Shown here piece by piece: positions 46,504 through 59,916 of a stretch of 64,000 bases of DNA (position 1 is the stretch's first letter; every line of letters begins with the position of its first letter). The position numbers and the translations under genes were made by a program. The DNA is from a bacterium (GTDB lineage: Bacteria > Bacteroidota > Ignavibacteria > SZUA-365). The stretch spans positions 1-64,000 of the forward strand of contig JAHLLD010000002.1 of assembly GCA_020444325.1 (NCBI GenBank), written 5' to 3'. Under the pieces are notes generated by a model that was not told the origin of the DNA, did not search any database, and saw only the letters and a list, made by a program, of their open reading frames with translations.

Positions 46504-46518
46504 ATGCAGGATTTGCAT
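46504..46518. repeat. Degenerate copy of the ATGCAGAATCTGCAT element
   Basis: ATGCAGGATTTGCAT matches the element seen at 59306-59320 and 22319-22333 at 13 of 15 positions, and it is likewise followed by a C/T-rich CCTCCGC. It lies 25 bases before the palindrome of the DUF134 gene. Confidence 0.45.
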
Positions 46519-46543
46519 TCCTCCGCATTGATGCGTACAATTA

Positions 46544-46567
46544 CATTATGAATATATATTCATAATG
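46544..46567. promoter_or_regulatory. 24-bp perfect palindrome, probable operator of the DUF134 gene
   Basis: Bases 46544-46567 form a perfect 24-bp palindrome with core TGAATATATATTCA. It ends where the ribosome site (GGAG at 46567-46570) begins, eight bases before the start codon at 46576. A binding protein here would block transcription or translation initiation. The core resembles the sites before the other DUF134 gene (TGAACATATGTTC), so self-regulation is inferred. Confidence 0.7.
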
Positions 46568-46575
46568 GAGATGTG

Positions 46576-46905
46576 ATGCCAAGACCCCCATGCAGAAGAC
46601 GTGTTCATGAACCACCGGAATTCGTACGATTCAAGCCCGCCGGAATTCCGCAGCGCCTGCTGGACCGGGTCTGCCTTCGGGTCGACGAGTTTGAAGCGTT
46701 GCGGCTTGCAGATTATGAAGGACTGGATCAGAAGGAAGCGGCGGAACGAATGAACATTTCGCCCTCAACGTTTTCGCGTCTGATCGAGTCTGCCCGCTAT
46801 TCTCTGGTTCGGGCGATTATTGAGGGAAAAACTCTGGACATCGAGGGGGGCTCCATAGACTACGTACATCCACATCGACGCAGGAACAGCGGCGATGAAG
46901 TATAG
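46576..46905 (+). CDS. DUF134 family DNA-binding regulator (short form)
   Basis: 109 residues. It has the family signature [32 protein letters not shown] and a helix-turn-helix [20 protein letters not shown]. The ATG at 46576 (MPRPPCRRR) is preferred over the GTG three bases before because family members begin MPRP and GGAG is spaced correctly. It ends soon after the IEGGSIDYV segment and lacks the zinc-ribbon tail present in the second copy at 59425. A perfect palindrome lies directly upstream. It is followed after 44 bases by a peroxiredoxin gene, suggesting redox-related control. Confidence 0.9.
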
Positions 46906-46949: not shown

Positions 46950-47600
46950 ATGGAAACAAATGAAGTACGCATGCCGCTGCTGGGAGATCAGTTTCCCGAA
47001 CTGCAGGTACAGACCACGCATGGACCAATGAACATCCCGGGAGATTTCAAGGGATCCTGGTTCGTGCTTTTCAGTCATCCGGCGGATTTTACCCCGGTAT
47101 GCACGACGGAATTCGTGGCATTCCAGAAACGCGTCGATCAATTTGATGAACTCGGTGTCAAACTCGTTGGTATGTCCGTCGACCAGGTCTTCTCCCATAT
47201 CAAATGGGTAGAGTGGATCAAGGAAACGTTGGACGTCGAGATCACCTATCCCATCGTCGCTGCGAACGACAGTATTGCGATGAAGCTCGGCATGCTGCAT
47301 CCGGGCAAGGGGACGAATACGGTGCGTGCCGTGTTTATTGGCGATCCGGAAGGGAAGATCAGAATCATTCTGTACTATCCGCAGGAAATCGGCCGCAACA
47401 TGGATGAGGTGGTCCGCGCCGTTCGCGCCCTGCAGATTTCCGACAAGCAGGGAGCGGTTCCCGCCGGCTGGCCCGACAACGAACTCATCGGCGACCGTAT
47501 CATCGTGCCTCCGGCGACCAACGTGAAAGACGCCTCGGAGCGTCCCTCGCAGTACGAGTGCTATGACTGGTGGTTCTGCCATAAGCCGCTGGAGAAGTAA
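46950..47600 (+). CDS. Peroxiredoxin, Prx6-type with C-terminal cysteine pair
   Basis: 216 residues. The peroxidatic Cys is C51 in [12 protein letters not shown], preceded by SHPADF. The C-terminal extension has C204 and C210 in [11 protein letters not shown]. This three-Cys layout matches archaeal-type thioredoxin peroxidases (such as the Aeropyrum enzyme with C50, C207 and C213), in which the resolving Cys is near the C terminus and the protein forms decamers. It reduces hydrogen and alkyl peroxides in the cytoplasm. GGAGAAC precedes the ATG. It lies 44 bases after the DUF134 gene on the same strand, with a bidirectional terminator downstream. Confidence 0.95.
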
Positions 47601-59325: not shown

Positions 59326-59364
59326 GTGAGAATCGTGTGAAATGTACCGCGAAGGCTTGCATTA

Positions 59365-59413
59365 TGAACATATGTTCGTTAGATTGTGCGGGCAGGTAAC
59401 GAACATATGTTCA
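59365..59413. promoter_or_regulatory. Inverted pair of palindromes, probable operator of the second DUF134 gene
   Basis: TGAACATATGTTCGTTA (59365-59381) recurs as its reverse complement TAACGAACATATGTTCA (59397-59413), 15 bases apart. Each arm holds the perfect 12-bp palindrome GAACATATGTTC. The second arm ends 11 bases before the start codon at 59425. The core resembles the site before the other DUF134 gene, so these are probably regulator-binding sites. Confidence 0.7.
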
Positions 59414-59424
59414 GAAAGTTGGGT

Positions 59425-59916
59425 ATGCCAAGACCCCGAAGACCGAGACGTATACATGGACCCCCGAGATTCCACCACTTCAAACCGGTGGGCGTACCGC
59501 GCAGATATCTGGAAGCGGTGACGTTGACTGTCGATGAATACGAAGCGATACGGCTGGCGGATTACGAGGGCATGGACCAGCAGCCTGCAGCTGATAAGAT
59601 GGGTATCTCGCGACCGACGTTTTCGCGTTTGATCGAGGCAGCGCGGACGAAACTGGCCCAGAGCATTGTCGAAGGCAAGGAATTGCTGATTGAAGGCGGC
59701 GAGATCGATTATGTGCATACGCTGCAGCGTTGTTCGGATTGCGGAGAAGAACAGCTCGACAGCCTCTCCCCGGAGGAATTTGCGGAAGAGATGATGGGGC
59801 AGTGCTGCCGCAGATGTGGGTCCGAGAACGTTGAGGACCTTGATGAAGAGGCACTCGGACCAGGGTATGGCAAACGGAATTGTAGGCGGAGGGGGTCGAA
59901 GAACGGCAACGAGTGA
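59425..59916 (+). CDS. DUF134 family DNA-binding regulator with zinc ribbon
   Basis: 163 residues. FHHFKPVGVPRR, VTLTVDEYEAIRLADYEGMD and the helix-turn-helix QQPAADKMGISRPTFSRLIE are the family core. Residues about 103-134 form a zinc ribbon (CSDCGEE ... CCRRCGSEN). The basic C terminus follows. The start at 59425 (MPRPRRPRRI) matches the family beginning; upstream GTG 59386 and ATG 59407 lie within the operator and are rejected. It is a paralog of the 46576 gene, which lacks the ribbon. No co-directional partner gene follows closely. Confidence 0.9.
   Translation: MPRPRRPRRIHGPPRFHHFKPVGVPRRYLEAVTLTVDEYEAIRLADYEGMDQQPAADKMGISRPTFSRLIEAARTKLAQSIVEGKELLIEGGEIDYVHTLQRCSDCGEEQLDSLSPEEFAEEMMGQCCRRCGSENVEDLDEEALGPGYGKRNCRRRGSKNGNE

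Follow-up and report, generated by a model that had tools for sequence, protein, structure and literature searches.

The best sequence match to DUF134 (UPF0251) among solved structures is DeoR of Bacillus subtilis, a member of the SorC/DeoR subfamily. In the parts of the source available, contacts with G4 and T12 of ATTGAACAAAATTTCAAT are reported for its residues R39 and R34, and the authors state there that at 3.7 Å resolution the contacts were not shown with high confidence (PMC11229326). DUF134 itself, present in both bacteria and archaea, has no function assigned to it in the family libraries that were searched. Sequence search retrieved no solved structure of a DUF134 protein, nor did Foldseek yield a PDB match with E at or below 0.001. 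The first-pass annotation of the DNA studied here knew of no described site for the family, and none was found in print, in a search that covered mostly open-licence literature.

The window, that is, the whole stretch of DNA that was analysed, is 64,000 nucleotides long. Two DUF134 genes had been claimed for it and both were confirmed (PF02001 matches of 78.5 and 101.5 bits vs a curated cut-off of 27); the genome has three, the last (DUF134#3) lying outside the window at C1:310674. The relevant features of the window are the following.

46513..46541, + strand: likely promoter of DUF134#1, TTGCAT (46513-46518), 17 bp, TACAAT (46536-46541), read from sequence
46544..46567, no strand assigned: predicted operator of DUF134#1, a perfect 24-bp palindrome directly 3' of the -10 hexamer
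46576..46905, + strand: DUF134#1, 109 aa, helix ISPSTFSRL, without C-terminal zinc ribbon (PF02001, E 5.7e-22)
46950..47600, + strand: 1-Cys peroxiredoxin gene (NF009668 peroxiredoxin, E 9.4e-106)
59357..59385, + strand: likely promoter of DUF134#2, TTGCAT (59357-59362), 17 bp, TAGATT (59380-59385), read from sequence
59362..59381, no strand assigned: predicted operator 1 of DUF134#2, inside the -35/-10 spacer
59397..59416, no strand assigned: predicted operator 2 of DUF134#2, 35 bp downstream of operator 1
59425..59916, + strand: DUF134#2, 163 aa, helix ISRPTFSRL, C-terminal CxxC...CxxC (PF02001, E 4e-29)

DUF134 proteins are very probably sequence-specific DNA-binding autoregulators of small regulons. 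As dimers, with a helix-turn-helix like those found in sigma-70 region 4 and in DeoR, they would recognise the palindrome TTATG(a/c)(a/g)CAT.ATG(c/t)(g/t)CATAA at the promoters of their own genes. DUF134 bound in the -35/-10 spacer would obstruct RNA polymerase and so repress its own gene, and either a partner protein or the zinc ribbon at the C-terminus would serve as sensor for a metal, Fe-S or sulfur signal. Such a regulon would be small, consisting of DUF134 plus an adjacent or formerly adjacent operon; an operon of Mrp/NUBPL-type ATPases, NifX and DUF5320 would be governed in trans. DUF134#1 would be a diverged paralogue tied to the 1-Cys peroxiredoxin, one whose helix has changed and whose operator has changed to match.

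The 24-bp palindrome reported before DUF134#1, CATTATGAATATATATTCATAATG at 46544-46567, is indeed perfect and overlaps GGAG, the start of the gene then following at 46576, which bears out its placement at the ribosome site. Its 12-bp arms are the longest among the perfect palindromes of the window, a length reached by 1/100 dinucleotide shuffles. The predicted operator lies directly 3' of TTGCAT-17-TACAAT and covers the expected start; hexamers like these are also readable upstream in relatives, where the operator has the counterparts TTATGAAGATATTTTCATAA (G001) and TTATGAATATATTTTCATTT (G002). The peroxiredoxin gene is probably co-transcribed with DUF134#1. The same gene order is found in G001, where the two genes overlap, and the pair also occurs in G002, as judged from a matching antisense frame.

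Before DUF134#2, the inverted 17-bp arms described earlier, TGAACATATGTTCGTTA (59365-59381) and TAACGAACATATGTTCA (59397-59413), are exact reverse complements, and each contains the core GAACATATGTTC attributed to it. The common consensus proposed for both genes, TGAAYATATRTTCA, fits the palindrome at 46544-46567 with 0 mismatches; the sites at 59365 and 59400 are each off by one end base. In relatives the promoter of DUF134#2 reads TTGACT or TTGCAT, 17 bp, TATATT. At DUF134#3 a weaker version of the operator, TAATGAGCATATGCCTATAA, sits between TTGCAC and TATAAT, and a NifX-domain gene lies behind. The N-terminus of the proteins (MPRP.. at window positions 46576 and 59425; RRGRP in DUF134#3, L002:1495), which we take to resemble an AT-hook, could grip the AT-rich flanks of the operators.

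The window holds three matches to TGAAYATATRTTCA at ≤2 mismatches (0, 1 and 1 mismatches) vs 0.26 expected, a number reached by 1/100 shuffles. Just five places in the 4.65 Mb home genome match at ≤1 mismatch. Three of these are in the window and the other two form a pair, C2:276225/276260, spaced 35 bp as at DUF134#2. Behind the pair comes an operon with two Mrp/NUBPL-type ATPases (CbiA/ParA-type, with ferredoxin motifs), NifX (Nitro_FeMo-Co) and DUF5320. The genome-wide scan called for by the first-pass annotation thus returned few copies, and all five places are at promoters of DUF134 or of an operon that follows DUF134 in relatives. This operon and DUF134#2 are 217 kb apart in the home genome, which has two Nitro_FeMo-Co genes only, one in the Mrp operon and one behind DUF134#3. 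Relatives hold ATPase/NifX genes behind their DUF134#2 counterparts, as read from translations: two ATPases, NifX and a DUF5320-like gene in G009, with paired operators in front; at least one ATPase plus NifX in G001; and a same-strand NifX gene about 2 kb behind in G008 and G011. For this reason the home operon was most likely split, with both halves retaining their operators. Since the Mrp/NifX operon has paired operators of the DUF134#2 type, it is predicted to be under trans control. Its second operator, TTATGAATATATGTGCAAAA (L019:4261 = C2:276260), has one DUF134#1-like and one DUF134#2-like half-site, so both paralogues might bind it.

Two-mismatch matches in the home genome number 23, of which 15 were inspected (9 within an ORF of at least 70 codons, 6 outside). 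Nothing convincing was seen among these 15, a separate TTTTAACATATGTTAAAA motif aside, and therefore no further regulon members are claimed. The same 20-mer, AATTTTAACATATGTTAAAA, is intergenic twice in the home genome: one copy is upstream of TetR-like and secreted-protein-like genes and the other is near a small toxin-antitoxin-like pair (functions judged by eye; L227:965 = C4:42564 and L228:975 = C6:187674). It is possibly the operator of some other regulator.

The core GAACATATGTTC, identical at three home sites, is also the core of the Firmicutes LexA footprint TACGAACATATGTTCGTA, according to the part of the source available (PMC2248561), and the home genome has a lexA gene at C2:215522. 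It is nevertheless extremely unlikely that the sites are LexA (SOS) boxes, bound by LexA instead of DUF134. The best matches upstream of lexA and recA are 4-9 mismatches off the two motifs; among the matches listed, whose C1 and C2 entries cover both genes, no GAACNNNNGTTC place is near lexA or recA. The sites follow DUF134 across genomes. Unlike the Gram-positive LexA box, they vary in core and flanks with the DUF134 helix, those of other lineages reading GAGCATATGCTC or GCACATATGTGC in step with it. With no such site at lexA or recA, the LexA reading was rejected for the home genome.

A conserved palindrome in the promoter region of DUF134 genes was found well beyond the home genome. The best 80 of 537 confirmed DUF134 matches were taken, and 15 near-duplicates were dropped to leave 65 loci; being the closest of the 537, they do not stand for the whole family. 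The best 80 span Cloacimonadota, Neomarinimicrobiota, Calditrichota, Deltaproteobacteria, Spirochaetes, Krumholzibacteriia, Bacteroidetes, Planctomycetota, Armatimonadetes, Thorarchaeota and others. The consensus TGAAYATATRTTCA, which is independent of the 65 loci, occurs at ≤2 mismatches in 33/65 of them vs 5/723 control regions (taken upstream of the other reading frames that these loci contain), and in 0.77% of 1300 shuffles; the upstream check suggested by the first-pass annotation thus came out in favour of its motif. A refined 20-mer, settled ahead of the statistics though with these loci already viewed once, matches at ≤3 mismatches in 46/65 loci vs 1/723 controls and 0/1300 shuffles. 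More than 4 mismatches separate it from the best match in 13/65 loci, some of them with divergent or farther sites. Matches at +314 in three loci (L069, L078, L081) were discarded, as they encode the zinc-ribbon residues CGHMF. No palindrome was seen upstream of DUF134 in three Thorarchaeota loci (L097, L120, L127); these share GACCGGAATCCTTTT about 30-55 bp upstream of the gene, followed by a variable stretch. In a held-out set of 40 upstream regions retrieved after the pattern was fixed, 21 have a match at ≤3 mismatches and 25 a site recognisable by eye. The 15 without a site comprise 14 of one paralogue type (family f31) and one marginal family match; two of the 14 (G146, G204) do have one farther off, about 1.6 kb upstream.

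DUF134 was detected at E 0.001 or better in 22 of 61 relative genomes and above the curated cut-off in 19. The upstream regions in these relatives carry single TTATGAGCATATGCTYATAA-type sites, paired TTATGAACATATGTKCATTA sites, or the variants TTATTAGCATATGCTAATAA or TTTTGTGCATATGCACAAAA. The refined 20-mer, TTATGMRCATATGYKCATAA, composed after these regions had been viewed, matches at ≤2 mismatches in 29 places in the 61 genomes, 24 of them ≤150 bp upstream of DUF134. The remaining places are two at the home Mrp/NifX operon, one within a reading frame (G006) and two in a genome lacking DUF134 (G029); the same pattern read backward gave 3 places. By genome, TTATGMRCATATGYKCATAA is present in 16/19 with DUF134 above the cut-off vs 1/42 without (Fisher 8e-11), and among 296 genomes of the phylum, at ≤1 mismatch, in 18/75 vs 1/221 others (5e-11); both P values overstate independence because the genomes are related. 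The phylum search gave 19 places in 19 genomes. Eleven adjoin DUF134 and five are 0.67-1.6 kb upstream of it, an OsmC-like gene coming first in four (in G146 OsmC is Pfam-confirmed, with SLAC1 behind); the fifth is in G234. One stands upstream of a pyridine-nucleotide oxidoreductase gene (G246), one before a zinc-ribbon gene and a NifX gene (G091), and the last is that of G259.

That another regulator with the same helix, for example of the SorC/DeoR family, reads the palindromes and DUF134 is merely its target is very unlikely, since the motif follows DUF134 presence across genomes and the operator bases follow DUF134 helix residues, down to the home genome, in which DUF134#1, with its odd helix, has an odd operator. 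Two observations speak for such a regulator. The one motif site of G259, a genome with no DUF134 above the cut-off, is TTATGAGCATATGATCATAA (L258:1501), which lies some 150 bp ahead of a gene whose SorC-family product has the helix SRPKVSRLI and the sugar-binding domain PF04198; and B. subtilis DeoR reads TTGAAC half-sites, as given in the part of its report available (PMC11229326).

The AlphaFold2 model of DUF134#2 (mean pLDDT 85.9; helices 36-47, 52-59 and 63-83) contains a DNA-binding helix-turn-helix that matches sigma region 4 and DeoR. The residue-base survey started from 148 protein/upstream pairs, which gave 119 called sites and, after proteins at least 85% identical were dropped, 104. 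The site caller scored symmetry only and was blind to which bases stand at -6 to -3. Helix residues 63, 67 and 68 covary with operator positions ±3, ±4 and ±6. R63 goes with C at -3 in 99/100, and C is never seen there with the three P63 proteins (DUF134#1 and its G001 and G002 counterparts). With half-sites counted as halves, G67 goes with G at -4 in 40/42 and S or T67 with A in 53.5/57; R68 goes with G at -6 in 82.5/91 and N68 with T in 12/12. Sign tests on independent helix/operator changes, made on a helix-free tree, were not significant; no residue changes more than 2-3 times on it, so that the association, though consistent, lacks statistical independence. DNA binding by DUF134 proteins is, on these sequence comparisons, well supported. 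DUF134#1 and DUF134#2 probably read slightly different motifs, because DUF134#1 is missing the arginine that is paired with C at -3, and its site is missing that C.

The operator centre lies within the 16-18 bp spacer of -35-like and -10-like hexamers in 24/55 called loci vs 15/1100 random positions. The -10 half of this comparison is circular in part, TTATAA being contained in the operator arm; the -35 half is free of circularity. The spacing of paired operators is 24, 26, 34 or 35 bp, in two clusters about one helical turn apart, and looser pairs, at 30, 77 and 100 bp, depend on matches with 3 mismatches. As the site often fills the spacer, with a second copy 24-26 or 34-35 bp downstream in some lineages, DUF134 when bound most likely stands in the way of RNA polymerase. 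From operator position alone, we infer repression rather than activation. The best fold matches of DUF134 include sigma region 4, and Pfam Sigma70_r4_2 matches too, as would suit a protein that binds but activates, or acts as a sigma-like recruiter. Such a role is unlikely: the operator is between -35 and -10 or directly 3' of -10, many loci have near-consensus -35 and -10 hexamers at 17-bp spacing, and the proteins are of 109-163 aa, without sigma regions 1-3.

For the autorepressor reading, the genes behind DUF134 suggest what the regulon may contain. The downstream survey covered 97 reading frames from 44/65 loci, the other loci lacking a called DUF134 frame or offering under 1.5 kb of sequence after it. 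ParA/NUBPL accounts for 28 of the frames, Fer4 for 27, Nitro_FeMo-Co for 22 and DUF5320 for 17. One locus (L066) has a ZIP transporter gene with the site in front and DUF134 behind, and in another (L165) an ArsP_2 heavy-metal exporter adjoins the DUF134 gene. An extra intergenic TTATGAGCATATGTGCATTA was seen upstream of multihaem cytochrome genes (L074:1375), in a locus that also has a DUF134-Mrp-NifX operon. A metal, Fe-S or sulfur signal for DUF134 is a guess, made because of the Fe-S and metal genes downstream and the double CxxC.

The predicted operator, code and regulon make the entire DUF134 family directly testable, the code offers target prediction from protein sequence alone, and DUF134 would be linked to how the Mrp/NifX iron-sulfur carrier operons, which are poorly understood, are controlled. 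A wider proposition is put forward tentatively, the balance tipping slightly against it: that DUF134 proteins are phylum-crossing zinc-ribbon autorepressors with a portable code (63 to ±3, 67 to ±4, 68 to ±6), governing Mrp/NifX, ZIP/ArsP_2, OsmC/SLAC1/oxidoreductase and peroxiredoxin genes through a shared metal/sulfur signal. On that proposition the window would show operon splitting with operators retained, and a duplicated regulator insulated by a matched change, from R63 to P in the helix and by loss of C at -3 in the operator.

The Mrp/NifX operon resembles the Desulfovibrio ORP/MrpORP system, in which Mrp-type ATPases occur with a dinitrogenase-cofactor (NifX-type) domain; the ORP operons differ in being reported as sigma-54-controlled, with a regulator of their own, in the part of the source available (PMC6345978). 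The term DUF134 is absent from the main text of that paper (PMC6345978). Another close known system is DeoR. Its recognition helix is nearly identical, ISRPTVSRLL vs ISRPTFSRLI in DUF134, with 42% identity and 0.7 Å over 40 residues of the model, and its operator half-site TTGAAC falls in the same register. On our own alignment and the five-residue distance between the arginines, DeoR R39 and R34 were equated with DUF134 residues 68 and 63, and their contacts with positions -6 and +3; so equated, two residue-base pairings in DUF134 agree with the DeoR-DNA contacts reported in the available part of that source (PMC11229326). In contrast to DeoR, DUF134 is without a sugar-binding effector domain, neither DUF134#1 nor DUF134#2 having a Pfam match to PF04198, which places neither in the SorC/DeoR family, and 55/65 of the proteins have a double CxxC after residue 92. 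DUF134 sites also differ from those of DeoR in their centre, mostly CATATG, and in having Fe-S, NifX and metal genes as their neighbours. This way of reading DNA is thus known from DeoR, whereas the operator, partner domain and regulon appear to be new for DUF134.
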